A stretch of 25,519 nt of DNA from NCBI GenBank assembly GCA_900771165.1, contig CAAGMX010000316.1, forward strand, positions 1-25,519. The letters run 5' to 3'. This DNA comes from Victivallales bacterium. GTDB lineage: Bacteria > Verrucomicrobiota > Lentisphaeria > Oligosphaerales > Oligosphaeraceae. A model generated the notes under the pieces. It was not told the DNA's origin and ran no database searches. It was given only the letters and a program-made list of their open reading frames with translations. The position numbers were made by a program, and so were the translations under genes. Positions within the stretch are counted from its first letter, which is position 1; each line of letters begins with the position of its first letter. Positions 7,481 through 25,178 of the stretch are shown here, piece after piece.

Positions 7481-8487
7481 TTTCGCTCCCAGATGGAGAG
7501 GCACTCCCGTTTGTTGTCGGCAAAGAAGGTGCGGGAGGAGATTTTGGCTTCCCGCACCACCCGATATCCCCCCATGACTTCCCGCTGTCCGTCGTAGGCA
7601 TTGGCCTCCACCACGGCCACCCCCGCCTCCAGGAAGCTGAAATTGTTCTTCAGGGTGAGCAGCAGCTCCATGTCCAGGGAGTCTTCCAGGGGAATGCCCT
7701 CCTCCCGCCAGAGCCGGAGGGCTTCCATCACCGCCTGCACATCGGCGGAATCCTCGTCCTGGTCCAGGCGGTTGGCGATTTCCCAGGCGGTGGCGGAGAA
7801 GATGGAGACCCGGCTGGCGCTGGCGTAGGTGTAGGCGATCTGCATGGGGGGCAGGGTGGCGATTTCTCCCTCCACCACCGTGTCCCATCCCGGGAGCCAG
7901 TAGAGTTCCGCCTTGAATTCCATGGGGCCGTTGCGGGGCAGGGTATAGAAGCCGTCGGCGGCGTAGTCGTCCACCTCGTAGCCATTGAGGCTGCGGAGAT
8001 CGTTGTCATCCACATAGTCGGTGTAGGCGTCCAGGAAGTTGTCCACTTCCAGGAGGAGATCGGCGTCGTCCACGGCGCTAAGTCCCTGGCGCAGCTGGGT
8101 GGACATGTTTTTGAGGACCAGTCCGCTCTCCCCGGAGTTCAGGGTGACGCAGCAGCGTTCCTCATCCAGGAGGTGGGGTCTGCCGTCCAGCATCCAGGGG
8201 GGGAATTCCTCGGTGGTGCGGAATTCATCCTCCTCGGTTTGTCCCAGAGTGCGGTTGGCGAAGAGTCTACGGTCGGTGAGATGGAGCCAGAAGGCGGTAT
8301 CGGCGGCGGATTCGGCCTGATAGCGCAGGAGGCCCTTGGTGGAGACCGCATAGGCTTCCTTGGAGAGGATTTCGGAGACGGTCATCAAGTGGGCGATGAG
8401 GACCATGGAGGTGGCCAGGACCCCCATGACCATCAGGAGGGCCATGCCTTCCTGGCCGGGGGCGGGGATATGGCGCGGGGTGGTCAT
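7471..8487 (-). CDS. gspK: GspK-like minor pseudopilin (type II secretion/type IV pilus-like)
   Basis: This 338-residue protein begins with a short leader ending GQEG followed by MALLMVMGVLATSMVLIAHL. That is a prepilin-type N-terminus in which position +5 is Met, not Glu, as is characteristic of GspK. The middle contains LDAYTDYVDDNDLRSLNGYEVDDY and then YTLPRNGPMEFKAELYWLPG, matching the family pattern of a D-D-D/E, NG-E-YY and N-P-F-ELLLV-G series in the alpha-helical GspK domain. GspK caps the pseudopilus tip with GspI and GspJ, acting across the inner membrane and periplasm. The ATG at 8485-8487 overlaps the GspJ-like stop by four bases (ATGA). The 3' end overlaps murB. The major pseudopilin and the secretion ATPase are not in the window. 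Confidence 0.85.
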   Translation of the reverse strand: MTTPRHIPAPGQEGMALLMVMGVLATSMVLIAHLMTVSEILSKEAYAVSTKGLLRYQAESAADTAFWLHLTDRRLFANRTLGQTEEDEFRTTEEFPPWMLDGRPHLLDEERCCVTLNSGESGLVLKNMSTQLRQGLSAVDDADLLLEVDNFLDAYTDYVDDNDLRSLNGYEVDDYAADGFYTLPRNGPMEFKAELYWLPGWDTVVEGEIATLPPMQIAYTYASASRVSIFSATAWEIANRLDQDEDSADVQAVMEALRLWREEGIPLEDSLDMELLLTLKNNFSFLEAGVAVVEANAYDGQREVMGGYRVVREAKISSRTFFADNKRECLSIWERKWR

Positions 8488-9185
8488 CGCTTTTCCTCCT
8501 CCAGGGGATTCCATTTTCCGAAGCGTTCCCGGTAGGCGTTGCCCATGGTGCGGCGCATCCAGGTTTCCTGGCGTCCGTTGGTCCAGTAGACGGTCATGCG
8601 GATGGCCAGGGGGAGATCCAGGCGCTGGGAGTCCTCGGTTTCCCACTCGTCCAGCCAGAGCCAGCGGTCTTCCCAGTTGTCGTTCTGGTCACCGGACCAG
8701 TCCAGGTAGGAGAAGGCGATGTGGGAGATGCCTTCCGCCAGGAGGACCGTCTGGTCCCGTCCTCCCAGGTCGCCCCACTGATAGAAGGGGCGGTCGGTGT
8801 AGGTGAAATAGAGATTGCCGTCCTGGACCTGGAATTCCCCGAAGCGGAGGGCGCCCTCCACGGGATCATGGAGGTCATGGAGATAGGCGATGCGGAGGAA
8901 GTTGGGCTGGGCCACCAGGAAGGGGAATTTTCTGTCCTCCCGGGAGGCCTGGTCGCTGGTCCAGGTGAAGGGGATGGCGTGGGAGAGGGTGGCATCGATG
9001 ACCCGGTCCATCCCCAGCAGCTCCTGGAAACGGTTTTTCTCCTGGAGGATCTTGGCCCAGTTCTGGGAGACGCCCCGGGCATAGCCGAAGAGGACGATGG
9101 TGAGGGAGAGGAGGATGGCCACGGCGATGGCCAGCTCCAGAAGGGTGAAGAACCGCCTTTGGCGGAGAGGGGCTTGGCGGCTCAT
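8484..9185 (-). CDS. GspJ-like minor pseudopilin (prepilin-type N-terminal methylation protein)
   Basis: The 233-residue protein starts with a basic leader (RQRRF) and FTLLELAIAVAILLSLTIVLF, the prepilin-type membrane helix with Glu17 at mature position +5. The predicted residue before the cleavage point is Phe, not the usual Gly. The rest is a soluble, aromatic-rich domain with LLAEGISHIAFSYLDWSGDQ, resembling the GspJ segment that reads 'L-GV-L-F-Y-D--G-W-' and a C-terminal 'LP-AIR-TV-' equivalent (LDLPLAIRMTVYW). The order I-J-K and the four-base overlaps with both neighbours support the J assignment. It would be inserted in the inner membrane and assembled at the tip of a pseudopilus. Confidence 0.8.
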   Translation of the reverse strand: MSRQAPLRQRRFFTLLELAIAVAILLSLTIVLFGYARGVSQNWAKILQEKNRFQELLGMDRVIDATLSHAIPFTWTSDQASREDRKFPFLVAQPNFLRIAYLHDLHDPVEGALRFGEFQVQDGNLYFTYTDRPFYQWGDLGGRDQTVLLAEGISHIAFSYLDWSGDQNDNWEDRWLWLDEWETEDSQRLDLPLAIRMTVYWTNGRQETWMRRTMGNAYRERFGKWNPLEEEKR

Positions 9186-9598
9186 CCCTGGCCTCCTGTG
9201 GGCTCATAGTCCACATCCTCGTTCTTCACCAGCTTGCGAACCGACTGCTCCCCCACCAGCTTCCCGTTCTCGTCGTAGAGGCGCACCCGGAATTCTCCCA
9301 GCCGCCAGCCCTGGATGGATTCGTAGGCGGCGTCAGGGAGGCCGTCCTCCACGTTAAAGAGTTCGCATTCGGCGTACCACCCCTGGGGGAGGAGTTCCTG
9401 GGGGAAGTCGGCGTCGGGGCCGCAGGCCAGGTAGAATTCCAGGGCGTTGGTGAGATAGTGTTCCCGTCCCCATCGCCGTTCCTCCCGCAGGACCTTGGCC
9501 TGGCTGGTGCCCACGATGGACATGGTCGCCACGGCGCTGAGAGCCAGCACCAGGGAGGCGATCATGACTTCCATGAGGGTGAAAGGACGGCGGCGCAT
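9182..9598 (-). CDS. GspI-like minor pseudopilin (prepilin-type N-terminal protein)
   Basis: This short protein of 138 residues has a leader MRRRP and the prepilin motif FTLMEVMIASLVLALSAVATMS, with Glu10 at mature position +5. The residue before the cleavage point is Pro rather than Gly. The C-terminal part is a small soluble domain with EHYLTNALEFYL and FRVRLYDENGKLVGE. Size, motif (TLMEVMIA is typical of GspI-type EV-A helices) and first place in an I-J-K order support GspI-like. The start at 9596-9598 was chosen because it gives a normal prepilin leader. A longer frame to 10036 runs through intergenic repeat sequence. The 45 nt before the start are almost purely pyrimidine, with no Shine-Dalgarno. 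Confidence 0.8.
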   Translation of the reverse strand: MRRRPFTLMEVMIASLVLALSAVATMSIVGTSQAKVLREERRWGREHYLTNALEFYLACGPDADFPQELLPQGWYAECELFNVEDGLPDAAYESIQGWRLGEFRVRLYDENGKLVGEQSVRKLVKNEDVDYEPTGGQG

Positions 9599-9711
9599 GA
9601 ACAAGGGGGTGGGGAGAGGGTGGGGAATGGACGGAGGAATAACGCCTTCTCCTAGAGGAGTATTGTGTCGCCGGAATCCGCGAAGGAAATGCCGGTTTTG
9701 CGAAAGGACAT

Positions 9712-9782
9712 AATAACCTGTTGATATGCAGTATATATGTATTAACACAAAACAAAAGACTGCATTCGCCAAGGAGGTTATT
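9712..9782. repeat. AT-rich nested inverted repeat in the divergent gspI/ATPase spacer
   Basis: Outer arms AATAACCT (9712-9719) and AGGTTATT (9775-9782) and inner arms TGCAGT (9727-9732) and ACTGCA (9759-9764) are perfect and nested around a 26-nt AT-rich centre. This is the most AT-rich patch of the local sequence and lies between two divergent genes. It is a plausible promoter/operator region; a TATACT-like -10 is readable on the minus strand within it. It could equally be the edge of a decayed mobile repeat. The remainder of the spacer (9599-9711 and 9783-9969) holds GC-rich sequence without a credible gene. Confidence 0.5.
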
Positions 9783-9969
9783 CTCTCCGCCGCCAAATTT
9801 AGCACATCCCGTGAGAACCTCTCTCCACACGGAGGACTTTCCCTTGGGGACGGCCTGCTCTCCTCCACGGGAATGCGTGTCCCTGGGGAACACGGCGCCG
9901 CCCCATCGCGGTGCGCCTTGAGGGGCGTCCCCCCAAAACAGCGGGACACGGCACATGGGGGGACAGAGG

Positions 9970-10020
9970 AAAGATTTGGGGATTCCTGCCGTTTCGGGCG
10001 AAAAAGATTTGGGGATTCCT
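9970..10020 (+). repeat. 18-bp direct repeat, two copies 33 bp apart
   Basis: AAAGATTTGGGGATTCCT occurs at 9970-9987 and again, identical, at 10003-10020. It lies just before the DUF4143 ATPase gene. It resembles the interspersed repeats that some bacterial genomes carry many times, or it may be an operator pair. Only two copies are in this window. Confidence 0.75.
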
Positions 10021-10052
10021 CTCTTTCATGCTGCATTACAGGAACATGCGAT

Positions 10053-10058
10053 GGAGGG
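10053..10058 (+). promoter_or_regulatory. Shine-Dalgarno sequence deciding the ATPase start
   Basis: GGAGGG lies 7 nt upstream of the tandem ATGATG at 10066-10071. This supports translation from 10066 over the upstream in-frame ATG at 10051 and over the much longer frame from 9955, whose first residues come from the direct repeat. A strong purine-rich site contrasts with the CT-rich leaders of many neighbouring genes. Confidence 0.7.
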
Positions 10059-10065
10059 ATCCAAA

Positions 10066-11397
10066 ATGATGTTCAAGAGAAAAATCTACGATGCGTTGCT
10101 TGCCTGGAAGCAGACGCAGAACGGAAGAACCGCGTTGCTGTTGAAGGGGGCGAGGCGCGTGGGCAAGACGACGATCGTCAAGGAGTTTGCGGCAAGGGAG
10201 TACCAGTCCCACGTCCTGATTGATTTCGCCAAGACATCGGAGGACATCAGGAGCCTTTTTGACGACCTGTCCAATCTGGATGACTTCTTCATGAAACTGC
10301 AGCTTTTCACGCATTCGCGTCTCCCGAAAAGGCAATCCGTCATCATCCTGGACGAGATTCAGCTCTTTCCCAAGGCCAGGCAGGCCATCAAGTATCTGGT
10401 GGAAGACGGGCGTTACGACTACATCGAGACGGGCTCCCTGCTTTCCCTCAAGCGGAACACGGCGGGCATTCTGATTCCTAGCGAGGAGACGCGCCTTGTG
10501 ATGCCGCCGATGGACTATGAGGAGTTCCGTTGGGCGCTGGGCGATTTCGACACCTGCGCCCTCCTGCGGGATTTCTTCCAGGGACGCAAGCCATTGGGGG
10601 AGCCGCTGAACCGGAGGATGCTGAGGGATTTCCGGCTTTACATGCTGGTGGGCGGGATGCCACAGGCCGTGTCCGCGTACTTGGATTCCCACGACTTCAG
10701 CTACATTGACCAGGTGAAACGCGGCATTCTAGAACTCTATGAAGATGATTTTCGGAAGATCGACGCGAGCGGGGGCATTTCCCGTCTCTTCGGCAGAATT
10801 CCCTCCGAACTAAGGAAGGCGGCATCGAAGTATCAGGTCTCCAGCGTCCTTCCAGGACGAACCGCCGGGGAGGCGGGTGCCCTTGTCTGGGACATGGAGG
10901 ATTCCCAGACCGTGAACCTCGCTTTCCATGCCGACGACCCGAATGTTGGGATCGCACTCCATCGAGACGGACAGCGATTCAAGGTTTTCCTTGCCGACAC
11001 GGGACTTTTTGTGACGCTCGCCTTCAAGGACAGGAAATTCACCGAGAACATCATTTACGAGAAGCTGTTGTCGGACAAGCTGGATGCCAATCTGGGTTTC
11101 CTGTACGAGAACGCCGTGGCCCAGGCTCTGAGGGCCAATGGCGAGGAACTCTACTACTACACATTTCCGCAGGAGAGCAGCAATCACCTCTACGAGGTGG
11201 ATTTCCTGCTTTCACGGGGAAACAAGATCTGCCCCATCGAGGTCAAGTCCTCGGGATACCAGAGGCATGCGTCCCTGGACGCCTTCAAGGAGAAATACTC
11301 AGGGAGAATCAAGGAACGCTACCTGATGTACACGAAGGATCTAGCGAAAGTGCAGGATGTGCTGATGCTTCCTGTCTATATGGCCATGTTCCTGTGA
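10066..11397 (+). CDS. AAA ATPase with DUF4143 C-terminal domain
   Basis: The 443-residue protein has an N-terminal AAA domain with Walker A GARRVGKTT (28-36) and Walker B VIILDEIQLF (about 92-101), followed by the ETGS sensor segment of this family (YIETGSLLSLK) and PMDYEEF. The C-terminal domain carries a restriction-like pattern: YENAVAQAL, then YEVDFLL (about 376-382) and ICPIEVKSS (about 389-397), that is E...D...ExK. This is the AAA_14/DUF4143 family. Its biochemical role is not established; members are often multi-copy and mobile in anaerobe genomes. Base composition and codon use look less GC-rich than the neighbours, and it is the only gene in this part with a textbook Shine-Dalgarno. 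I infer horizontal acquisition. It converges on comF with 56 bp between them. Confidence 0.9.
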   Translation: MMFKRKIYDALLAWKQTQNGRTALLLKGARRVGKTTIVKEFAAREYQSHVLIDFAKTSEDIRSLFDDLSNLDDFFMKLQLFTHSRLPKRQSVIILDEIQLFPKARQAIKYLVEDGRYDYIETGSLLSLKRNTAGILIPSEETRLVMPPMDYEEFRWALGDFDTCALLRDFFQGRKPLGEPLNRRMLRDFRLYMLVGGMPQAVSAYLDSHDFSYIDQVKRGILELYEDDFRKIDASGGISRLFGRIPSELRKAASKYQVSSVLPGRTAGEAGALVWDMEDSQTVNLAFHADDPNVGIALHRDGQRFKVFLADTGLFVTLAFKDRKFTENIIYEKLLSDKLDANLGFLYENAVAQALRANGEELYYYTFPQESSNHLYEVDFLLSRGNKICPIEVKSSGYQRHASLDAFKEKYSGRIKERYLMYTKDLAKVQDVLMLPVYMAMFL

Positions 11398-15552: not shown

Positions 15553-15918
15553 TCATCTCCGGCGTCTGGTATAGAGGGAACGCAAATGGTGGTTAGGGGT
15601 AAGTGGAGACACTAGCGATAGAGGAATCAAAGAGGCATTTTTGTAAGGGAGAGATGAGTGCCAGCCATCTCCTGCATGCCAGGACTTCAGATCAATATTC
15701 CCAACAGTGATGATTGGTGCGAGGAAATCACATATACGCTTGATTGCGACTTTCAGGCTTTCAGGTTGTTTTGCCGGTTTCACTTTTTTTCAGAAAAGGA
15801 ATCGTTCGTAGGCATAGCGTAGAAGCAGGGAATCGAAACGGATTATGCGTTCAGAGGATAGTTGTTTCAGGCGGACATTGACGGAATGTCCCATGTTCTA
15901 GATGTCTTTTGTCTTCAT
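15553..15918 (-). pseudogene. Decayed AbiEii nucleotidyltransferase toxin (N- and C-terminal remnants)
   Basis: The frame starts with ATG at 15916-15918, overlapping the antitoxin stop as ATGA, the usual arrangement for abiEi-abiEii. It reads MKTKDI, hits TAG at 15898-15900, continues NMGHSVNVRLKQL, then DSLLLRYAYERFLF, hits TGA at 15790-15792, and continues in the same frame into KPAKQPESLKVAIKRICDFL and a WHAGDGW end. The first part matches the start of AbiEii ('NMAASVRARLLNLAR... QLLLTRYALERFLYRLS'); the last part resembles its C-terminal tail. The whole central nucleotidyltransferase core, about 200 residues with the GSxxDL-type site, is absent. The gene has therefore lost its core and gained two stops, and cannot make an active toxin. 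Confidence 0.82.
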
Positions 15919-16508
15919 ACCATGGCCTCCAGATAGGGGCGGAGAATTTTTGTCACTCGACACCGTGTGGCGGCTTTCCAAAGCCTGACAATGTCAATCC
16001 TGTTTTTCCTGACCGCTTCTTTGAGTGCCGCGACAGCGACATCAAGACCAATCTTGTTTCTGTATTGAAAACAATCCGCTATCGTTTGTTCCAGGCCATA
16101 AACCCGAAGTTTGACGCCGCTGGATTCCATTTCCATGACCTCAGAGGAAAAGGAAGGCTCCGTTCGGTAGATGAAGTTCACGGGTAGTCCTGAGGAGACG
16201 GGGGCATGGAACCCATGCCGGATCGCCATGCAAATCTCATGGGGGTTTTCATCGGTCAGTTCATGGAGACGCAGGGCGGATTGCAGGGCAAAGACTCCCT
16301 GGGGGATTTTCAGAGAAAGGGTTTCATAGTCGGCCAGAGCGGAGAATCCGGTGGCGGGGGAGACATAGGTGCCTCGGCTGCTTCGTACCGCTTCTCCCCG
16401 GCGCACCAGTAGGGAGGCCAGGCTGCTGGGGATGGCTGACTGACGCATTTCCCGTGCGCTCACAGGCCCTCTGGCAAGTCTCATTTTCAGTTGGGCAAGT
16501 TTCTTCAT
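15915..16508 (-). CDS. abiEi: AbiEi-type antitoxin / transcriptional regulator (type IV toxin-antitoxin)
   Basis: This is the antitoxin of the AbiE abortive-infection system: it represses its own operon and neutralises the AbiEii nucleotidyltransferase. The 197-residue protein has an N-terminal winged helix (about 1-55, MKKLAQLKMRL to RGTYVSP) and a C-terminal antitoxin domain. The latter contains KIPQGVFALQSALRLHELTDENPHEICMAI, VRVYGLEQTIADCF-type sequence (KLRVYGLEQTIADCFQYRNK), IGLDVAVAALKEA, and ends KILRPYLEAMV, closely following the family pattern. It appears intact although its partner is broken. A good sigma-70-like promoter lies upstream. Base composition is more AT-rich than the surroundings, consistent with acquisition by transfer. 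Confidence 0.92.
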   Translation of the reverse strand: MKKLAQLKMRLARGPVSAREMRQSAIPSSLASLLVRRGEAVRSSRGTYVSPATGFSALADYETLSLKIPQGVFALQSALRLHELTDENPHEICMAIRHGFHAPVSSGLPVNFIYRTEPSFSSEVMEMESSGVKLRVYGLEQTIADCFQYRNKIGLDVAVAALKEAVRKNRIDIVRLWKAATRCRVTKILRPYLEAMV

Positions 16509-16552
16509 GTGTTCTTTACCCCTCTTCTTCTCTTATGTCCGAAATAGCAACA

Positions 16553-16580
16553 AATATAAAGGATATGACGCACTTATCAA
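16553..16580 (-). promoter_or_regulatory. Sigma-70-like promoter of abiEi
   Basis: On the minus strand TTGATA (16580-16575) and TATATT (16558-16553) are separated by 16 nt; each matches 5 of 6 consensus bases. Transcription would begin about 35-40 nt before the abiEi ATG (16508). The AT-rich element stands out in a GC-rich sequence. AbiEi-type antitoxins usually bind inverted repeats here, but I see no perfect one. Confidence 0.6.
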
Positions 16581-16936
16581 CATTTTTCAGGGGGGGGAAG
16601 AATTTGCCTCTGCTTCTTGGGGCTTTCGCCTGCTTTTTCCCTGCGGTGTGTGCCCCGTAAGAAAAAAAGGGAAGAAAAGGGTGTGGGGGGGAGGAAAAAT
16701 AGATTGTGGTGGCTAGAGTATTCGGTGTGTCGGCGAAAGGGTGGGGGGACGAGGGGAGCCTCGCCTGTATGGCGCCGTTCCGCCGGTTGTTTTCTTTTTC
16801 CCCAATTCCCAGATCCTTCTCCGGAGGAGAACTGGTGTATCTGTCGGGCTGACAGATCGCCATCCGTCGTTTTTCCCATTTAGCACAGACCCGAAATTGC
16901 CTGTATTGGTAGAAGATATAGGTTTTCTGCTTGCGT
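16581..16936. other. Spacer between abiEi and the TolC-family gene, with a 7-bp palindrome
   Basis: No credible gene is seen in this 356-bp spacer; the open frames across it are low-complexity and lack family features. ATCTGTC (16839-16845) and GACAGAT (16851-16857) form a perfect inverted repeat around GGGCT, about 80 nt before the exporter operon, and are followed by CGTCGTTTTTCCC. It could be an operator for the export cluster or a short terminator/attenuator. I could not assign a convincing -35/-10 for the operon. Confidence 0.5.
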
Positions 16937-18373
16937 ATGAAGAAATCGACGTTGCCCATTCTGGTGGTGTCTGCTTTGGTGTGCCTGGGGAATCCTCTGG
17001 GAGAGCTGCTGCGTCAGGCTTCGGAGACCCATCCCGCCCTGGTGGCGGAGCGTGCGGTGGTGGAGCAGACCCTGCGCAGCCACGAGGAGCTGGCCGAGTT
17101 TCTGGATCCCGCCCTGTATGGAGCGGCGGGAGGGGCCACCCGGATTCGGGAGCTTCCCGGGGCGCCCCTGGGATATGACACGGTGGACAGCGCCAATGCC
17201 CTGGAGGCCCAGGCGGGGGTGCGGATTCCCGTGGAGGCAGGGGCGGTGGTTTCCGTGGGCGGGGTATTCCGCCGCTGGTTCGAGCCCGACGCCCCCTACG
17301 ATTCCCTGTATCAGCATCTTCTGGGGGTGAATCTCCAGGTGCCGCTCTGGCAGGACCGGGGGTTTGCCCTATACGGGCATCGTCGGGCGGCGGCGCTGGC
17401 CGCCTGTTCTGGAGCCATCCACCGTCTGCAGCAGGCGGAACAGCAGGTGCGCCGCCAGGTGGAGGCGGCCTATATCCAGCTTTGCGTGGCGGAGGCGGAC
17501 TGCCTGGTGTGGGGGGATGCCACGGAGCGCTTCCGGCGTCTCCATCAGGAGGCGGATCAGCTGGCGTCCTTGAAGGCCATTCCCCAGTATCAGGTGCAGA
17601 CGGCCCTCCGGGAACTGCAGGGGGGGCTGGCGGACGAGGAGGCCGCCCGGCAGACCCGGGAAAAGGCGGCCCTCTCCCTGGGACAGGCCATGGGACTGCG
17701 GGAGGTCCAGGAGGCCCGGGCATGCACCTCGGAGGAACTCCTCCAGGCCGCCCTCTCCCTGCCCCCTCTGGAGACTTTGGAAATCCCCGCCGCCCTGGAA
17801 CGCCGGGGCAGCTATCTGGCCATCCAGGATGACCAGAGGGTGGCCGAGGCGGAATCTGCCCTGGAGGAGGAGTATCAGAAGGATCAGGTGACTCTCCAGG
17901 CAGGGGTGACCTGGCAGGGGGATTCCTCTGGGCGTCCCCTGGGGTCCTACCGGGAAGCGACGGATCACCACTGGGGCGGGGAAGTGCTGCTGGTCTGGAG
18001 CCGTCCCCTGGACTATACCGGTCCCGAGGCGGCGGTGGCCCGGATGGCGGCCCGTCGTCAGGAACTTTCGGCCCGTCTGGAGGGGGAGGCTGTGGCGATC
18101 ACGGGGGAGATCCGGGGGGCGCAGCTGCGGCTGGAGGGGGCGAGGCGTCGTCTTGTCCTGATTCGAGAGGGGGTTTTGGCGGCCCGTCGGACCCTGGAGG
18201 CGGAGCAGGAGCGCTTCCGTCTGGGGGAAAGCACCTCGGCCATCGTCCTGGATGCCCAGAAGGAGCTGAACAACATTCTCCTGCGGCAGAACGCCACGGC
18301 GGCGGAGCTGCTGCTGGCTTATGCGGAACTCCAATACGCCTTGGGCTATCCCCGGGAGACTCCCCTCCTGTAG
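16937..18373 (+). CDS. TolC-family outer-membrane efflux protein
   Basis: TolC-family proteins form trimeric outer-membrane channels with long periplasmic helical barrels, working with an HlyD-type adaptor and an inner-membrane pump. The 478-residue product has an N-terminal signal peptide (MKKSTLPILVVSALVCLG), two repeat halves of long amphipathic helices (for example EQQVRRQVEAAYIQLCVAEAD and VAITGEIRGAQLRLEGARRR), and beta segments between them. The C-terminal LRLGESTSAIVLDAQKELN-type motif (FRLGESTSAIVLDAQ) is typical of the family. The ATG at 16937 was chosen over the in-frame TTG at 16931, because it gives a normal signal peptide. It is the first gene of the five-gene export cluster; 81 bp of CT-rich sequence separate it from the next. 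Confidence 0.88.
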   Translation: MKKSTLPILVVSALVCLGNPLGELLRQASETHPALVAERAVVEQTLRSHEELAEFLDPALYGAAGGATRIRELPGAPLGYDTVDSANALEAQAGVRIPVEAGAVVSVGGVFRRWFEPDAPYDSLYQHLLGVNLQVPLWQDRGFALYGHRRAAALAACSGAIHRLQQAEQQVRRQVEAAYIQLCVAEADCLVWGDATERFRRLHQEADQLASLKAIPQYQVQTALRELQGGLADEEAARQTREKAALSLGQAMGLREVQEARACTSEELLQAALSLPPLETLEIPAALERRGSYLAIQDDQRVAEAESALEEEYQKDQVTLQAGVTWQGDSSGRPLGSYREATDHHWGGEVLLVWSRPLDYTGPEAAVARMAARRQELSARLEGEAVAITGEIRGAQLRLEGARRRLVLIREGVLAARRTLEAEQERFRLGESTSAIVLDAQKELNNILLRQNATAAELLLAYAELQYALGYPRETPLL

Positions 18374-18385
18374 GAGGAGGAGACG

Positions 18386-18429
18386 CCTCTCTCCCCCCTC
18401 CCATTCCCCTTCTTCTTTCTCCTTTTCTA
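18386..18429 (+). promoter_or_regulatory. Polypyrimidine tract between the TolC-family gene and the zinc-ribbon gene
   Basis: A 44-nt run is C/T except for two A bases. It ends about 25 nt before the ATG at 18455, and no Shine-Dalgarno is present. It fits the pattern of CT-rich leaders seen before other genes in the window. A Rho-utilisation site within the operon is an alternative reading. Confidence 0.5.
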
Positions 18430-18454
18430 CCCTCACTTCATCGCATCAACGGCC

Positions 18455-19270
18455 ATGGGCTTCCATCTCTTTGGACATCGGGACAAATCGGACCTGCCGG
18501 GTCTGCAGAATCTGCCCACTACCATGACGGGGAGCATTGCCCTCCCGGAGGATCAACGGGCGCAGTTGGCCTCGGACCTTTCCATGCTGGACAAGACGGA
18601 CCTGGCCAGGAGCCAGCGCCTCCAGAAGGATGTGGAGCGCTCCGTGATCTCCGCCGCCGAGGACTCGGTGAAGCGTCTTCGGGTGGTGGAGATGGGGCGC
18701 TGCCCCTCCTGCGGCGCCCACATCTACCAGCATGTGGGGGCCAACATCTGCGACGCCTGCGGCTGGCATCAGTTCGACCTGCCCAAGAAAGGCGCGGTGC
18801 GGGTGCATCTCAAAGGAGGGAGCGAGACCCCTCTGGAAGGGGAGCGCGCCTATGTCCTGAAGAGCGGGGACTGCCTGGTGGTGCGCAACGGCGTCGTGGC
18901 GGCCCAGGTGCCCCGGGACGCCTACACCTGGGTGGAGTACAACTGGCCGAAGGAGGAGTTGTCCTCCCGTCACACCGAGGCCCAGAAGCAGTTGACCGTG
19001 CCTTGCGGCTGGTGCGGCAAGAGCACGAATCCCGCCGCGGACGGATTCCATCTGCTTCATATCGCCTTCGGGGCCACCCAGGAACGGTATTGCTTCTGCT
19101 GCGATGAATGCTACGAGGCCTTCCGTAAGATGTATCCCTCCCGGGTGCACCGGGACTGCTACAACCGGGATTGCGCCACCTGCAACGCTTGCCAGAAACG
19201 CTATGACGAGGAGGCCGCGGAGATGCGGATGCTCGCCAAGGACTACATCCGCACAGGGAAGGAGCGCTAG
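18455..19270 (+). CDS. Cysteine-rich zinc-ribbon protein of unknown function in export cluster
   Basis: I do not recognise this family. The 271-residue protein has no signal peptide or membrane helix, so it should be cytoplasmic. Residues 1-80 are polar and helical (DQRAQLASDLSMLDKTDLAR, LQKDVERSVISAAEDSVKRL). A classical zinc ribbon follows: CPSC (C83, C86) and CDAC (C99, C102, followed by GWH). A beta-rich middle segment (about 112-170) is followed by a second cysteine cluster: C184/C187, then C213, C215, C216, C219, and C235, C240, C243, C246. In all there are 15 cysteines. It sits between the TolC-like and HlyD-like genes, 6 bp before hlyD, all codirectional. I infer a regulatory, chaperone or substrate-handling role for the exporter. 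A role unrelated to export cannot be excluded. Confidence 0.75.
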   Translation: MGFHLFGHRDKSDLPGLQNLPTTMTGSIALPEDQRAQLASDLSMLDKTDLARSQRLQKDVERSVISAAEDSVKRLRVVEMGRCPSCGAHIYQHVGANICDACGWHQFDLPKKGAVRVHLKGGSETPLEGERAYVLKSGDCLVVRNGVVAAQVPRDAYTWVEYNWPKEELSSRHTEAQKQLTVPCGWCGKSTNPAADGFHLLHIAFGATQERYCFCCDECYEAFRKMYPSRVHRDCYNRDCATCNACQKRYDEEAAEMRMLAKDYIRTGKER

Positions 19271-19276
19271 GCTGCC

Positions 19277-20389
19277 ATGGGAGACATTCGTATCACAGAG
19301 GGAGAGGGGTTGCCGGAGACCCGGGCGCAGCGGCGTCACCGCAAAGGAAAGGCCCTGGCCTGGTTTTTTGGGGTAGTGATCCTGGTGGGCCTTCTGGGCT
19401 GGGTGATTCCGGTGAACCGGTATGCCACGGCCCGGGGCTATGTGACCACCCGGGAATATGCGGAGGTGCGCTCCCCCGTGACGGGGATTGTGAATCGGAT
19501 CCTGGTCTCCTCCGGGGAGACGGTGGAGGCGGGCCAGGTGCTGGTGGAACTGAATTGCGCCGAGGAGGAGGCCAGCCTCTCCGAGGCCCAGGCCCGGGTC
19601 TCCCGGCTGCGCTCCGAACGGGAGCGCCGCCAGACGGAAATGTCCAGCACCCTCTCCCGGAAGACCGTGGAGCTGGCGGAGCAGAAGCGGAACCACGCGG
19701 CCCAGCTCCAGGTGGCGGAATTGGAGCTGGCCAACCAGGAGAGCCGTTTGGGCCTTACCCAGGAACTGGTGGAGAAAGGGCTGAAATCCCAGCGGGAGCT
19801 GGACGAAATTCGTCTGGGGCGGGATTTGTGCCAGGTGCGTCTGGAGGCCTTGCGGCAGAAGGATTTCCAGGTCTTCGAGGAGCTGCTGGAGCGGGATCGC
19901 CAGATGTACGCCAGCGAGATCCAGTCCATTGACGAGGAGTTGTCCGCCCTGGAGGATTCCGTGCGCCGCGCCCAGGCCCGGATTGAGAACCGGAAGATTC
20001 GGGCGCCCATTGGGGGAAAGGTGGTGCGCTACGAGTTTGTGGTGGGGGAATTGCTGGAACCCACCTACGTCATCTACGAGATCTTCGGGGGAGAGGAGCA
20101 GGTGTTGAAGCTGCGGGTGGACGAGCGGTACGCCACTCGTCTGGCCACGGGGCAGCGCTATCGGGCCCGTCTGGCCAGCTACAACAGCGCCATTGAGCGC
20201 ATCTACTTCCGGGGGCAGGTCAGCTATCTGCGGAACGTGGTGCAGAATGACGGGCAGAACGCCTACCGGATGGCCTACTGCGACTTTCATCCTGGAGACC
20301 TGGCCATCCAGCCTGGAACCACGGCGGAAGCCCGAATCTATTACGCCCGCAGTTCCTTCTGGAGTTTTCTGCTGAATCTGGAACCCTGA
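19277..20389 (+). CDS. HlyD-family periplasmic adaptor (membrane fusion protein)
   Basis: Adaptors of this family link an inner-membrane pump to a TolC channel. The 370-residue protein has a basic cytoplasmic N-terminus, one membrane helix (about 26-46, ALAWFFGVVILVGLLGWVIP), a first lipoyl half-motif (VRSPVTGIVNRILVSSGETV, about 64-83), and a long coiled-coil hairpin (about 95-235, with ERERRQTEMSSTL and ELELANQESRL). The second lipoyl half is IRAPIGGKVVRYEFVVGELL, followed by a beta-barrel domain. Its start lies 6 bp after the zinc-ribbon stop; an AAGGAG within that gene's end (about 13 nt away) may act as ribosome site. It ends 22 bp before the first ABC gene. The single N-terminal anchor resembles HlyD/EmrA-type adaptors more than lipoprotein types. 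Confidence 0.92.
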   Translation: MGDIRITEGEGLPETRAQRRHRKGKALAWFFGVVILVGLLGWVIPVNRYATARGYVTTREYAEVRSPVTGIVNRILVSSGETVEAGQVLVELNCAEEEASLSEAQARVSRLRSERERRQTEMSSTLSRKTVELAEQKRNHAAQLQVAELELANQESRLGLTQELVEKGLKSQRELDEIRLGRDLCQVRLEALRQKDFQVFEELLERDRQMYASEIQSIDEELSALEDSVRRAQARIENRKIRAPIGGKVVRYEFVVGELLEPTYVIYEIFGGEEQVLKLRVDERYATRLATGQRYRARLASYNSAIERIYFRGQVSYLRNVVQNDGQNAYRMAYCDFHPGDLAIQPGTTAEARIYYARSSFWSFLLNLEP

Positions 20390-20411
20390 CGGCCCACGGC
20401 GCCCCTCTCCC

Positions 20412-22166
20412 ATGTCCCGGGATGCCCAACAGCCCAATCTCCTCTGGCGGCTTCTGCGCCGCTATTGGCTACCCCTGGTGCAGGCCGCGGGTCTCACCTT
20501 GGTGATGGCGGGGATCAATTCCATGGTGCCCCTGATCTCCAGCGCCTTGGTGGATCGGGTCTTCACCAATGGGGAGACGGATGTGTTCCTGCCCCTGGCC
20601 CTCTGCTATGTGGCGGGACCCATCCTCCAGCAGATTCTCACCGTCTTCCAGAGTTCCCTGGGCATTCTGGTGGCGGTCTTCTTCGCCGGGGATCTGCGGT
20701 GCGCCGTCTATCGCCACCTCCTTTCTCTCTCCCTCCGCTTCTTCCAGGTGAACAGCGCCGGAAAGGTGGTGAACCGGGTGATGGAGGATACCCAGACCCT
20801 CATGGGCATCTTCAATACCTCCGTCACCACCACCATCTCCGATGTGATCATCGCCACGGTGGCCATCTGCGTCACCATCACCATCAACTGGAGACTGGCG
20901 CTCCTCTCCTTCCTGGTGGTGACGGTCTTTGTGGTGAACTACCGCTTCAGCATCCACCGCATCGTCCGCTTCACCCGCTTGATGCGGAGGGAGGACGACA
21001 CCCTCACCGGCGGCGTCCAAAACCGGATTTCCGCCTCCCTGGCGGTGAAGACCTTCGGCATGGAGGAGCGGGAGAACCTGGTGTTCCAGGGGCACAATCT
21101 GGCCTCCTTGGACTATGGACGGATCCGGGACAAGGCCAATGCCCGCTTCTGGCTGAATGTGGCCCTCATCGCCGCCCTGGGGCCGGCCCTGATCTACTTC
21201 TGCGGTTGCACCATGGTCCTCCAGGGGCAGATGACCTACGGCCAGGTGCTGGCCTTCAATCTCTACACCCTCCAGCTCATCTGGCCCTGCGTCCGCTTCA
21301 GCCAGTTGGCGGGCCGTCTTCAGGAAGCCCGGGTGGCCCTGGGACGCCTGGGAGAATATCTCAAAGTGGAGCCGGAGATCCAGGATCCCCCCCATCCCCG
21401 TCCTCTCGCCCGTCTTCGGGGGGAGGTGGAGTTTCGGCATGTGGAGTTTCACTATGTGGAGAATGTGCCGGTGATCCAGGACATCAGCCTGAAGGTTGCC
21501 CCTGGGGAGACGGTGGCCTTCATTGGCACCACGGGCTGCGGAAAATCCACCATGCTCAATCTCCTGACCCGCTTCTATGACGTCACGGGGGGCGCCATCC
21601 TCCTGGACGGGGTGGATTTGCGGGAATACCGGATGAAGGATCTTCAGCGCCAGTTTGGCATCGTCCTCCAGGAATCCTACATCTTCTCCGTCTCCGTGCG
21701 GGAGAACATCCGGTATGGGCGTCCCCAGGCCACGGACCGGGAGGTGGAGGAGGCGGCCCGGGCGGCGGAGATCCATGACTTCATCCAGAGTTTGCCCCAG
21801 GGATACGACACCTTGATGGGGGAGGAGGGGGTGGCTCTCTCCGTGGGGCAGAAGCAGCGCATCAACATTGCCCGGGCCATCTGCGCCGATCCCGCCATCA
21901 TGATTATGGACGAGGCCACCAGCTCCCTGGACTCCGATTCCGAGGCGGCCATCCAGCGGGGCATGGAACGACTTCTGGCGGGACGCACCAGTTTTGTGGT
22001 GGCCCACCGCCTCTCCACCATTCGCAACGCCAACCAGATTGTCCTCATTCACAAAGGGCGGATTCTGGAGCACGGCACCCATCAGGAGCTCATGGCCCTG
22101 GAGAATGGGCACTACCGGGATCTGTACACCAAGCACATGGGGAAGGGGGTGTTGGACGATGCCTAG
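20412..22166 (+). CDS. ABC exporter half-transporter 1 (consensus catalytic Glu/His, altered signature)
   Basis: This 584-residue type IV-fold ABC exporter (MsbA/Sav1866 style) has six membrane helices (about 1-320) fused to a nucleotide-binding domain. Motifs: Walker A GTTGCGKST (372-380), Q-loop VLQES, signature LSVGQ (476-480) instead of LSGGQ, Walker B IMIMDEATSS with catalytic E501, and H-loop VVAHRLST with H532. There is no N-terminal C39 peptidase or C39-like domain, so it is not a leader-peptide-processing transporter. The intact Glu and His together with the altered signature are the expected complement of the next gene's product, which has the opposite pattern. The start follows a CT-rich stretch with no Shine-Dalgarno. 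Its end overlaps abc2 by 8 nt, so the two are probably made in equal amounts. Confidence 0.94.
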   Translation: MSRDAQQPNLLWRLLRRYWLPLVQAAGLTLVMAGINSMVPLISSALVDRVFTNGETDVFLPLALCYVAGPILQQILTVFQSSLGILVAVFFAGDLRCAVYRHLLSLSLRFFQVNSAGKVVNRVMEDTQTLMGIFNTSVTTTISDVIIATVAICVTITINWRLALLSFLVVTVFVVNYRFSIHRIVRFTRLMRREDDTLTGGVQNRISASLAVKTFGMEERENLVFQGHNLASLDYGRIRDKANARFWLNVALIAALGPALIYFCGCTMVLQGQMTYGQVLAFNLYTLQLIWPCVRFSQLAGRLQEARVALGRLGEYLKVEPEIQDPPHPRPLARLRGEVEFRHVEFHYVENVPVIQDISLKVAPGETVAFIGTTGCGKSTMLNLLTRFYDVTGGAILLDGVDLREYRMKDLQRQFGIVLQESYIFSVSVRENIRYGRPQATDREVEEAARAAEIHDFIQSLPQGYDTLMGEEGVALSVGQKQRINIARAICADPAIMIMDEATSSLDSDSEAAIQRGMERLLAGRTSFVVAHRLSTIRNANQIVLIHKGRILEHGTHQELMALENGHYRDLYTKHMGKGVLDDA

Positions 22167-24168
22167 GCTGGGCGGCGGCTTCTTCAAATTCATGCGCCGG
22201 GAGCATTTCCGGGGCTATCTCTACCGGGGGGAATCCCGGAAGGAGGAGCGGGGGGAGGAGAAGGGATACCTGAAGCGTTTCTTCCGGGAGTATCTCTGGC
22301 AGTATCGGTGGATGCTTCTGGCCACCATCCTGGTCATTGGCCTGAACAACTCCGGCCCCTTCATCATCGCCGCCCTGAACCGGGTGGTGGTGGACCGCAT
22401 TCTGGTGGTGACGGACGGGGAGGGAAAGCCCATGATGGCCCCCCCCGAGGAAAGGCGATTCCAGGAGGGAACCGCTCCCCACTATCGCACCCCCGGCAGA
22501 AATCCGCCCCGGGAAAGCATGGGACGACGCATGGCCCGGGGGGTACGCCTCAATGGACGCCCCGCCGAGGCGGGAAAAGCCCTCCTCCTCCTGGCCATCC
22601 TCTACATCCTCTCCCAGATCTTCTTCAACTATCTCTCCCGACGGGCGGACTACCTCCTGGTGGACTTCTCCATGCGGGTGCTGGGCACCCTCCGGGAGGA
22701 TATGCACCGGAAGGCTCTGGCCCTCTCCCTGTCCTATCAGCAGAAAATCACCCCTGGGCGTCTTCTCTCCCGGGTGGTGAGCGACACCGGTGCGGTGCGG
22801 GCGGAGATCAGCGGCTTCATTGAGTTGACGGTGAACGTGGTCTTCAAGGTGGCCATCGGCGTGGGCATCCTCCTGGTGTCGGAATGGCGGGTGCTGCTGG
22901 TGCTCTCCTGCGTCATCCCGGTCTTTCTCTGGATCCGACGCTGCTACGAACCCCCCATGCGCCAAATGCAGAGAGAGCAGCGCTTCACCAATAGCGCCCT
23001 CTATGGCCTCATCTCCCAGAAGATGGACGCCATCAAGGCCATCCAATCCTACGGACAGCAGGCCCGGGAGGATCTGGCCTTCCGCCGCCTCTCCTCCACC
23101 TTCAACCGGGATGCCATCCGGGTGCAGTGGAAGTTCAAGGCCATGGATTTCTGCACCTGGCTGACGCTCCATCTGGCCAATTGCATCGTCTTCCTGGGAG
23201 GAGGATACATGGTGGCCACGGGACGCATGAGCCTGGGAAAACTGGTCTTCCTCCAGACCTTGACCCAGATCTTCTTCCAGCCCGTCTCCGAATACACCCA
23301 GCTCTCCTTCGTCATCCAACGTCTCCAGGTGGCCCTGGGACGCTGCTTCCGCATCCTGGACGAACCCCCGGAAATCGTGGACGCCCCGGATGCCATGGAG
23401 GTGCCCAGCCCCCTCGCCCAGGGCATCCATATCCGGGACCTCTCCTTCGCCTACGACCAGGAGGAGGCAAAAAAGAAGGGAATCCCCCCCACTTACGCCC
23501 TCTCCCATGTGAACCTGGATGTCCCCCCAGGAGAATGGCTCTGCATCATGGGGGCCTCCGGCGCCGGAAAAACCACCCTCCTTCATCTCCTGGCACGACT
23601 CTACACCCCCACCGCCGGAACCATCGACTACGATGGAATCCCCCTGGATAAACTCCGACTGGATAGCCTCCATCGGAAGGTGGGGGTGGTGCCCCAGGAA
23701 GCCCAAATCTTCTCCGGCACGGTCCGGGACAATATCGCCTACGGCTATCCCCCCGCCTCCAACCAGCAAATTCTGGAGGCCGCCCAGGCCGCCCAACTCC
23801 ATGAGGTCATCATGGAAATGCCCGTCCAATACGAAACCCTCATCGGAGAAAAGGGACAGTCCCTCTCCGGAGGACAACGCCAGAGACTCTCCCTGGCTCG
23901 GGCACTCCTCTGCAAACCCGGCATTCTCCTCCTGGATGACTGCACTAGCGCCCTGGACGCCAATACCGAACGGAAAATCCAGGAAACCCTCATGACTCAA
24001 ATGGGGGGAAGAACCGCCGTCATCGTCTCCCAGAGGGTCTCCATGGCCATCCGATGCCAGCGCATCGCCGTCCTGGAAAAAGGACGGGTGACGGAATATG
24101 GGACCCACAAGGAACTGCTGGCCAACAATGGCTTCTATGCCACCCTCTTCCGGGAACAGACGGGCTGA
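22159..24168 (+). CDS. ABC exporter half-transporter 2 (degenerate Walker B/H-loop, canonical signature)
   Basis: The 669-residue protein is a membrane-domain/nucleotide-binding-domain fusion. It has a charged N-terminal tail (about 1-48). Between the first and second membrane helices there is an insert of about 55 residues (84-139), rich in Pro, Arg and Glu, predicted on the periplasmic side. Motifs: Walker A GASGAGKTT (465-473), signature LSGGQ (569-573), Walker B ILLLDDCTSALD with Asp594 where Glu is catalytic, and an H-loop SQR with Gln625 in place of His. Asp plus Gln, including the DDCTS string, is the pattern of the degenerate subunit in heterodimeric exporters such as TM287/288. I infer that it pairs with the preceding gene's product. 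The ATG at 22159 overlaps abc1's stop (ATGCCTAG). A longer frame from 21994 is a shadow within abc1. Confidence 0.93.
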   Translation: MPRLGGGFFKFMRREHFRGYLYRGESRKEERGEEKGYLKRFFREYLWQYRWMLLATILVIGLNNSGPFIIAALNRVVVDRILVVTDGEGKPMMAPPEERRFQEGTAPHYRTPGRNPPRESMGRRMARGVRLNGRPAEAGKALLLLAILYILSQIFFNYLSRRADYLLVDFSMRVLGTLREDMHRKALALSLSYQQKITPGRLLSRVVSDTGAVRAEISGFIELTVNVVFKVAIGVGILLVSEWRVLLVLSCVIPVFLWIRRCYEPPMRQMQREQRFTNSALYGLISQKMDAIKAIQSYGQQAREDLAFRRLSSTFNRDAIRVQWKFKAMDFCTWLTLHLANCIVFLGGGYMVATGRMSLGKLVFLQTLTQIFFQPVSEYTQLSFVIQRLQVALGRCFRILDEPPEIVDAPDAMEVPSPLAQGIHIRDLSFAYDQEEAKKKGIPPTYALSHVNLDVPPGEWLCIMGASGAGKTTLLHLLARLYTPTAGTIDYDGIPLDKLRLDSLHRKVGVVPQEAQIFSGTVRDNIAYGYPPASNQQILEAAQAAQLHEVIMEMPVQYETLIGEKGQSLSGGQRQRLSLARALLCKPGILLLDDCTSALDANTERKIQETLMTQMGGRTAVIVSQRVSMAIRCQRIAVLEKGRVTEYGTHKELLANNGFYATLFREQTG

Positions 24169-24548
24169 TCCCGCCGTAGCGTCAATCGTTTCCCCGGGGA
24201 CATCCTTTTCCCCCAGGGGGGGGGACAGGATGCATCCAGGGACACGATTGGCGGGACATTCCCCCGCCTGCGGGGGACACAGGGGGCATCCTTGTGAACC
24301 CCGTTTACGGGGTGGGAGGCCTGAATACCCCGTGGGTGAAGCGCAGCGCAACCCCCGGGGGCATTAGGATGCATCCCGGGAACCGGGGGCACGGGGGCAT
24401 CCCCTGTCTGTGGCGCTACACCTTCCACCCAGAACCCCGGCAGGGGTGACAGGATCGCTAGACGGGGGTGGAACCCCCGGCGGGAATATCCCGGCCGGGA
24501 ACCCCTCGGGGGGCGGATTTTTTTCTGTTGGGAGCGGACTAAAAACTA
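24169..24548. repeat. GC-rich hairpin and repeat cluster between convergent operons
   Basis: This 380-bp gene-free spacer holds at least six strong inverted repeats: TCCCCGGGGA (24191-24200), CCCCCGC-CT-GCGGGGG (24261-24276), ACCCCG-TTTA-CGGGGT (24298-24313), GGGGGT-GGA-ACCCCC (24464-24478), TCCCGGCCGGGA (24489-24500), and the 10-bp palindrome GGATGCATCC twice (24228-24237 and 24367-24376). The two palindrome copies share flanks (AGGATGCATCC-GGGA). A GAAGCGCAGCGCAACCCCCG string at 24338-24357 resembles dispersed intergenic repeats. I see no open reading frame with family features. It looks like one or two copies of an interspersed palindromic repeat. Confidence 0.7.
24489..24524 (+). terminator. 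Candidate terminator for the export operon
   Basis: GC-rich inverted repeats (TCCCGGCCGGGA at 24489-24500 and CCCC-TC-GGGG at 24502-24511) are followed after GGCGGA by seven consecutive T (24518-24524) on the plus strand. It is the only strong plus-strand T-run after abc2, though 320 bp downstream of its stop, so the transcript would include the hairpin cluster. Confidence 0.55.
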
Positions 24549-24550
24549 CA

Positions 24551-24575
24551 TAACCACTTGCATATGAAGTGGTTA
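24551..24575 (-). terminator. Perfect 9-bp hairpin after folE
   Basis: TAACCACTT (24551-24559) and AAGTGGTTA (24567-24575) pair perfectly around GCATATG. On the minus strand the stem is followed within 5 nt by TTTTT (24545-24541). It begins 19 bp beyond the folE stop. This fits a rho-independent terminator with an AT-rich stem; its symmetry would also suit a protein-binding operator. Confidence 0.6.
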
Positions 24576-24593
24576 CAATAAAATTCCCGCCCC

Positions 24594-25178
24594 TTATCCC
24601 CGTTTCAGGAGTTCCATGAATTCGTTTCGGGTGGCCTGGGAATTTCGGAAGGATCCCAGGACGGCGCTGGTGACCATCAGGGAGTTCTGCTTCTGGACGC
24701 CCCGCATCATCATGCACAGGTGGTGGCATTCCATGACCACCCCCACGCCCTGGGCGTCGATCTTTTCCCGGACATAGGAGGCGATCTGCTGGGTGAGGCG
24801 CTCCTGGAGCTGGAGCCTCCGGGCGAAGCAGTCCACAATCCGCGCCAGTTTGGAGACGCCGTAGACCTTTCCCCTGGGGATATAGCCGATATGGCATTTT
24901 CCGTAGAAGGGGAGGAGGTGGTGTTCGCAGAGGGAGTAGACCTCGATGTCCTTCACCACCACCATGTGGTTGCACTCCTCGCTGAAGAGGGCATCCCCCA
25001 CGATGTCATCGGGATTCTGGGTATAGCCCTGGAGGAGGAACTGGAAGGCCTTCTGGACCCGCTGGGGGGTCTTCAGGAGTCCTTCCCGCTCCGGATCCTC
25101 GCCGCTGAGGCGGAGGATTTCCCGGACGTGGTCGGCGATGTTCTCGCAGGGGTTGGTGGGATCGGGGGTCTGGTTCAT
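24594..25178 (-). CDS. folE: GTP cyclohydrolase I FolE
   Basis: FolE converts GTP to 7,8-dihydroneopterin triphosphate, the first step to tetrahydrofolate (and related pterins/queuosine precursors). The 194-residue protein is of normal type IA length. Motifs in order: [13 protein letters not shown], then [24 protein letters not shown] (zinc-ligand Cys and catalytic His residues), [44 protein letters not shown] (second zinc Cys), and a C-terminal TRNEFMELL. The start at 25176-25178 gives the usual N-terminus. It is preceded by about 30 nt of nearly pure C/T with no Shine-Dalgarno. It lies 34 bp after secA in the same direction, so it may be co-transcribed. Confidence 0.96.

Follow-up and report, generated by a model that had tools for sequence, protein, structure and literature searches.

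The 25,519-nucleotide contig CAAGMX010000316.1 of a Victivallales bacterium (assembly GCA_900771165.1; the whole stretch is called the window below) carries five genes coding, in order, for a TolC-like outer membrane protein, a cysteine-rich (Cys) protein, a HlyD-like adaptor and two ATP-binding cassette (ABC) half-transporters, ABC1 and ABC2. An earlier note on this DNA had described the genes as codirectional with short gaps or overlaps and had proposed a dedicated envelope-spanning exporter built on an ABC heterodimer. The layout was borne out, all five genes lying on the plus strand between positions 16937 and 24168 with intergenic gaps of 81, 6, 22 and −8 bases, and the proposal is supported by the recurrence of the gene order, the co-occurrence of the genes and the asymmetry of the ABC motifs. 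Judged from sequence, the five genes probably encode one dedicated envelope-spanning exporter with a heterodimeric motor and a cytoplasmic Cys-rich subunit.

A comparison of 28 Cys proteins with 84,980 species, each represented by a single genome, yielded 77 loci, mostly in metagenome-assembled genomes (MAGs) labelled Lentisphaerae/Lentisphaeria/Victivallales, Kiritimatiellae or Verrucomicrobia. Eight contigs are labelled Spirochaetaceae/Spirochaetales, and one locus labelled Paceibacterota (L027) is probably misplaced. Pairs of loci that appear to represent the same place (L077/L084, L064/L085, L073/L078, L037/L092, L038/L093 and L060/L094) were each counted once. Since the order tolC, Cys gene, hlyD, abc1, abc2 recurs in 42 of the 77 related loci, the five-gene arrangement is more than a product of chance, and the five genes are a conserved module. 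Among loci L001 to L067, which the single-gene counts span (L076 and L077 lie outside), all five genes stand in order in 36 of the 43 with room for everything; the conservation of gene order that the earlier note had named as its check was thus found. Where a locus has room for the gene in question, TolC is found upstream in 55 of 60 cases, and HlyD follows in 59 of 62, ABC1 in 52 of 57 and ABC2 in 43 of 47. The window TolC is 57% identical to the TolC at the equivalent place in L001 and L002. The seven loci that have room but not the full order differ in kind. L016 and L017 keep tolC and the Cys gene together, with hlyD-abc1-abc2 together on another contig (genomes G007 and G005); L026 has no abc gene in what remains of the locus; L031 has its TolC match elsewhere in genome G008; in L038, 5.4 kb separates hlyD from abc1; L064 has no TolC match and a short hlyD; and L065 has no TolC.

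The Cys gene and this type of ABC2 also occur in the same genomes. In the class of Oligosphaera, 20 of 94 genomes carry the Cys gene, one copy each. A profile built from Cys-linked ABC2 proteins matches in all 94 genomes, with 20 scoring at least 853 bits and the next 468, and these 20 are the genomes that carry the Cys gene. In the class of the Kiritimatiellae MAG G002 (116 genomes), 17 genomes have the Cys gene, 16 have an ABC2 match of at least 680 bits and 14 have both. All five discordant genomes are cut so that the gene not found would stand beyond a contig end: in G148 and G504 abc2 begins behind abc1 and is truncated by the contig end, the gene places of G514 are those of L038 with abc2 running off the end, and in G490 and G509 abc2 stands at a contig edge where the Cys gene would sit upstream. 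Throughout the phylum of Oligosphaera, the Cys profile matches 32 of 288 genomes. The 198 Spirochaetota genomes gave one real match, the seed genome; a second Spirochaetota match (E 9.5e-4) was judged spurious. Pairwise distances of the five proteins, determined for the window and 35 loci in which all five proteins are close to full length, correlate with r of 0.72 to 0.96 (none of 2000 permutations reached the observed value for any of the 10 pairs), a correlation that is also expected from common inheritance alone.

The asymmetry of the ABC pair, as claimed earlier, holds without exception in all readable rows (62 of 63 for ABC1, window included, and 54 of 57 for ABC2). In the window, ABC1 keeps the catalytic Glu and the H-loop His and has a degenerate signature, LSVGQ, while ABC2 has an intact LSGGQ, with Asp replacing the Walker B Glu and Gln the H-loop His. 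The third signature residue of ABC1 is V in 51 rows, T in 5, I in 3 and L, A and R in one each, and G in 0 of 62; the catalytic Glu is present in 62 of 62 and the H-loop His in 61 of 61. LSGGQ and the catalytic Asp of ABC2 are found in 54 of 54 rows, with Gln (52) or Met (2) in the H-loop. In ABC dimers, each ATP site joins the Glu and His of one subunit with the signature of its partner. Paired in this way, the Glu/His of ABC1 and the LSGGQ of ABC2 would form a consensus site and the Asp/Gln of ABC2 and the LSVGQ of ABC1 a degenerate one, as in TM287/288 and TmrAB. The two proteins are 33% identical. In 51 of 54 loci no more than 700 bases separate their genes; the remaining three loci begin inside abc2. 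Adjacent halves with membrane and nucleotide-binding domains and complementary consensus and degenerate sites, as expected of a heterodimeric type IV ABC exporter, are present.

That ABC1 and ABC2 each carry a membrane and an ATPase domain would also fit two separate homodimeric exporters sharing one operon by chance. Because ABC2 has Asp for Glu and lacks the H-loop His in 54 of 54 rows, and ABC1 lacks the signature Gly in 62 of 62, both ATP sites of each such homodimer would be impaired. A joint quick tree places all ABC2 proteins on a single branch (SH-aLRT 99) and does not resolve ABC1 as one clade, and the loci split in the same two ways within ABC1 and within ABC2; ABC1 and ABC2 distances correlate with r 0.96. 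We consider two independent homodimers most improbable. This tree, like the concatenated one described below, omits 14 loci (close or partial relatives) and ABC rows shorter than 520 amino acids, and the concatenated tree also omits loci without both ABC proteins.

The proposed heterodimeric exporter resembles several known systems. Like TM287/288, TmrAB and BmrCD, it combines a consensus and a degenerate ATP site in two neighboring half-transporters; unlike them, it has TolC, HlyD and the Cys protein in the operon and an ABC2 span from transmembrane helix (TM) 1 to TM2 of 76–101 residues in tripartite loci. The top PDB matches of both ABC proteins are eukaryotic ABCB proteins. Bacterial half-transporters among the best 60 matches include Sav1866 (337 bits) and TM288 (310) for ABC1, and 5mkk_A (277) and 3qf4_A (240), which we take to be TmrA and TM287, for ABC2. 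The best NCBIfam scores of both proteins are to MsbA-type models, and all of the best 25 matches of each protein lie below cut-off. As in type I secretion (HlyB-HlyD-TolC), an ABC protein, a HlyD-type adaptor and a TolC-type channel are found together, and the type I models are recognizable in HlyD and ABC1. The scores stay below the cut-offs (TIGR01843, 80.2 against 208.65 bits for HlyD; TIGR01844, 24.7 against 225.15 for TolC; TIGR01846, 371.4 against 725.55 for ABC1), and the system differs in having an asymmetric pair in place of one ABC protein and no C39-like domain. VarACDEF of Vibrio cholerae likewise joins two different permease subunits to an adaptor and an outer membrane channel of its own in a tripartite pump; it differs in its MacB-like permeases and separate ATPase, and the part of its description seen does not mention a Cys-rich protein (PMC5595328).

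The earlier note had regarded a heterodimer with a HlyD protein as unusual. There are precedents in the NHLP/Nif11 systems (PMC2887384) and in Thermus, where a review names TmrAB as the basis of the only type I secretion system and describes TmrA E523 and TmrB D500 (PMC8277102). The NHLP/Nif11 kit (NHLM; TIGR03794 HlyD-like, TIGR03796 ABC with peptidase, TIGR03797 ABC) joins two different ABC half-transporters to a HlyD-like adaptor of their own and has been reported beside NHLP genes in Victivallis vadensis as well (PMC2887384). The five genes could encode an exporter of this kind that has lost the peptidase and secretes modified peptides produced from other parts of the genome. For ABC1, TIGR03796 gives 342 bits and TIGR03797 313. 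All scores are far below cut-off (HlyD 35.8 against 156.2; ABC1 342.1 against 853.3 on TIGR03796; ABC2 264.7 against 709.4 on TIGR03797), ABC1 has 584 amino acids and no peptidase match, TolC is usually in the operon, and a Cys-rich gene stands between TolC and HlyD. Thus, the three models at cut-off plus a peptidase, which would mark an NHLP/Nif11 system, were not found, and we regard this explanation as quite unlikely. An adaptor with two ABC proteins is known; the present set adds an extremely conserved Cys partner. No description of the five-gene set or of the Cys family was found in searches of open-licence full texts, and one may exist elsewhere.

The relatives of the exporter form a graded series, from the ABC pair alone through the pair with the Cys gene and both with a short HlyD to the full set. 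L068, L070, L072 and L073 (Spirochaetaceae/Spirochaetales) and L080 (G067) have the order abc1-abc2-Cys gene, and neither TolC nor HlyD was found by profile search of these loci. The Cys gene thus remains beside the ABC pair even where a locus has lost or never had TolC and HlyD. In G003 and G067 the whole genome is without a match to the window TolC; the search for HlyD covered the loci. L064 combines the Cys gene and the ABC pair with a HlyD of 249 amino acids, whose coiled region appears by eye too short for the usual hairpin, and the window TolC finds no match in the genome of L064. A concatenated ABC1+ABC2 tree (47 rows, loop columns removed) separates the pairs alone and the pairs with the Cys gene from L064 and the tripartite loci with support of 100/100, and groups the tripartite loci without L064 at 97/97; L064 is a long branch, flagged by the tree tool. 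As the Cys gene is present on both sides of the split, it may be old and lost in L086–L089, or it may have been gained twice. The pairs of L086, L087, L088 and L089, of the same lineage and without a Cys match, represent a natural control set.

The TM1-TM2 loop of type IV exporters faces the periplasm. Between the TM1 end and the TM2 end, ABC2 has 76–101 residues in the 37 sequences of tripartite type, against 68 in L064, 40–41 in six sequences of pairs with the Cys gene and 40–45 in four of pairs alone, while the corresponding ABC1 span is 49 in every row measured. Since the ABC2 loop is longer where HlyD is present, the adaptor may dock on this periplasmic extension and from there reach TolC. 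In the window HlyD, a membrane helix can be recognized by eye at the N-terminus; the protein also has lipoyl and barrel domains and an alpha-hairpin with an RLS-like tip. The RLS tip motif of tripartite adaptors is the TolC contact; in 58 rows, the first place of the tip is R in 18 and L in 29, the second L in 53 and the third S in 18 and A in 38.

The Cys-rich protein consists of N-terminal helices, a CxxC..CxxC ribbon (C83, C86, C99 and C102), an SH3/Sm-like beta domain at about residues 103–169, as judged by fold matches, and a C-terminal eight-Cys domain (pLDDT of the predicted model 77.9). The earlier note had called it a zinc ribbon. The ribbon is indeed present, but the conserved part of the protein is the C-terminal domain, whose eight cysteines are invariant in 62 aligned pieces and whose core is retained almost alone in L081. 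In the 35 loci and the window, residues 182–252 show a median identity of 0.70, above that of the ABC ATPase domains, and the family therefore probably has a demanding job. Homologues fall into 233 clusters at E 1e-3 or better, and into 405 with a broader alignment. Where the matches listed (120 of the 233 clusters) bear a name, it is "hypothetical protein" or, for four with JGI labels, "ribosomal protein L32", and no functional name was found apart from these automatic labels. The closest match, at 93%, is from an Oligosphaeraceae MAG. Long Cys open reading frames (ORFs) in L042 and L045, considered as possible fusions of the Cys protein with ABC or TolC, look like high-GC read-through of another frame.

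By predicted fold, the CxxC/CxxxC half of the core appears to be an eL24/TRASH-like treble clef. The spacing fits and the best fold matches are ribosomal chains, which we take to be eL24/Rlp24; none of them reaches E 0.001, and Foldseek found no match at that level for the whole protein or for its C-terminal domain. The Pfam YHS model gives 12.5 bits on the window protein, below the cut-off of 30.3, and matches 30 of 79 family members at E up to 0.1 (best 9e-4). In its spacing and the predicted fold of its first half, the core thus resembles the TRASH/YHS/eL24 metal knuckles, including that of LmABCB3; it is unlike them in its second cluster, C-x4-C-x2-C-x2-C, in being a protein separate from the ABC subunits and in leaving the YHS cut-off unreached. 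TRASH domains have been described in metal sensing and trafficking, and LmABCB3, a mitochondrial ABC half-transporter of Leishmania, bears one (PMC4700571).

These resemblances, together with the weak YHS matches, are in favor of a more specific form of the exporter, in which the Cys protein, as a metallochaperone or sensor, passes a metal-thiolate or metal-chelate compound to the ABC pair or opens the pump once metal has bound. Against metal-linked export, YHS stays below its cut-off, the best fold matches are ribosomal, both ABC proteins score best on MsbA-type models, below cut-off, and no metal gene stands out by eye in the flanks; we regard it as possible but rather doubtful. The Cys protein could also be a regulator that binds RNA, the ribosome or DNA, acts on the operon or the cargo pathway and lies nearby through joint use without being part of the pump. 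Here, the ribosomal fold matches stand beside the presence of the gene with the ABC pair where TolC and HlyD are missing, and we hold a regulator to be unlikely.

In the envelope-spanning exporter favored here, the ABC1-ABC2 heterodimer would hold ATP at the degenerate site and hydrolyze it at the consensus site. From its co-occurrence with the pair, the Cys-rich protein may be a cytoplasmic subunit or gate, acting through the C-terminal domain with its putative eL24/TRASH-like metal knuckle and a second four-Cys site for Zn or Fe-S. A fuller version, which we put forward tentatively and consider less probable than the exporter itself, is an asymmetric motor whose third, cytoplasmic subunit gates it by metal or redox state through the TRASH-like and the second, possibly Fe-S, site. 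It would have been assembled stepwise, from a plain heterodimer by addition of the Cys subunit, then of a short adaptor on a new ABC2 loop and finally of a full adaptor with TolC. If true, metal- or redox-gated ABC export would be a new regulatory principle. The findings also touch on the open questions of how a type IV ABC motor is joined to a tripartite pump, where the graded relatives (pair, with Cys protein, with short adaptor, full pump) show one subunit's periplasmic loop longer where an adaptor is present, and of why many motors keep an impaired ATP site.

Several observations weigh against a single five-part exporter. Absence or displacement of the Cys gene and abc2 in relatives, which the earlier note had taken to speak against one system, was found in part: the two genes share the same 20 of 94 genomes, but lie on different contigs in three of them (G005, G007 and G217), G005 and G007 keeping hlyD-abc1-abc2 together elsewhere, and Spirochaetaceae relatives have the ABC pair and the Cys gene without TolC and HlyD at the locus. 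Four genomes (G131, G182, G185 and G277) have a related ABC pair with the same motif asymmetry (566–589 bits) and no Cys match. Their loci, L086–L089, show neither TolC nor HlyD in a BLAST search; L089 is short. Five of the 60 loci with room lack an adjacent TolC, the TolC match of L031 being the displaced one in G008. Given the origin of the ABC2 profile, the score gap in the class of Oligosphaera ties this ABC2 clade, and not any ABC2, to the Cys gene. The correlation of loop and HlyD amounts to one deep split plus the long-branch row of L064, and thus to few independent events. Finally, the flanking genes point to no consistent cargo (30 loci listed; clusters of 58 loci).

Clustering of the flanking ORFs of 58 loci and the window yielded no constant sixth gene, several clusters being antisense shadows, and no gene of the operon evidently codes for the cargo. 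No RTX or double-glycine substrate was seen by reading the letters of the window, the flanks of relatives not having been scanned for such signals. A small molecule, peptide or metal-thiol compound seems a more likely cargo than a large RTX protein. Because it occurs in 20 of the 94 genomes of the Oligosphaera class, all of which have further ABC exporter matches, the system is taken to serve an accessory function bound to a clade, not that of a sole lipid flippase.

The coordinates are collected in Table 1. The start of tolC is the ATG at 16937, the frame in the ORF list beginning with TTG at 16931. The start of abc2 overlaps the stop of abc1 by 8 bases (ATGCCTAG), which suggests translational coupling. 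A simple scan found no sigma-70-like promoter on the plus strand of 16400–24600 and one on the minus strand, with 1.5 expected on both strands.

Table 1. Coordinates of the exporter genes and of features within them (window positions unless a locus is given).
Feature	Position	Strand	Remarks
TolC/OEP gene	16937–18373	+	PF02321 (E 1.1e-20); signal-sequence-like N-terminus (by eye)
Cys-rich gene, 271 amino acids	18455–19270	+	no Pfam match at cut-off
C-terminal eight-Cys core (residues 183–252)	19001–19210	+	CxxC + CxxxC, then C-x4-C-x2-C-x2-C
HlyD-like periplasmic adaptor gene	19277–20389	+	PF13437 (8.8e-11), PF16576 (1.8e-9)
ABC1 half-transporter gene, 584 amino acids	20412–22166	+	PF00664, PF00005
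ABC2 half-transporter gene	22159–24168	+	ATG start; PF00664, PF00005
ABC2 TM1 end through TM1-TM2 loop into TM2, 83 residues (D79–R161)	22393–22641	+	
Short HlyD-like gene, 249 amino acids	L064 10833–11582 / L085 10706–11455		

Some neighbors recur. A gene that looks by eye like a major facilitator superfamily transporter stands directly before tolC in ten loci (L006, L016, L017, L021, L024, L035, L036, L040, L059 and L061) at a gap of −52 to 520 bases, and the window has none there. Another flanking gene, starting IIGRGHSGTRAISNTL and perhaps coding for a sulfotransferase-like nucleotide-binding protein, is found in L011, L035, L036, L039, L040, L059 and L061. In the window, the minus strand at 15915–16508 and 15553–15897 contains an AbiEi antitoxin gene (PADLOC E 4e-55) next to tolC, and only short frames, which look like AbiEii remnants, at the expected position of its AbiEii partner. 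An AAA_14/DUF4143 ATPase gene (9955–11397, plus strand) strongly matches the PADLOC candidate defence family PDC-S01 (E 1.9e-96). Neighboring ORFs at 8484–10036 (minus strand) have type IV pilin-like N-terminal stretches (FTLLELAIAVAILLSL, FTLMEVMIASLVLAL); the one ORF tested, 8484–9185, has no Pfam match. A WaaP/Kdo-type kinase gene (2136–2786, minus strand; PF06293, E 6.7e-6) overlaps with its 3' end the 3' end of a comEC-like gene (577–2181) on the opposite strand.

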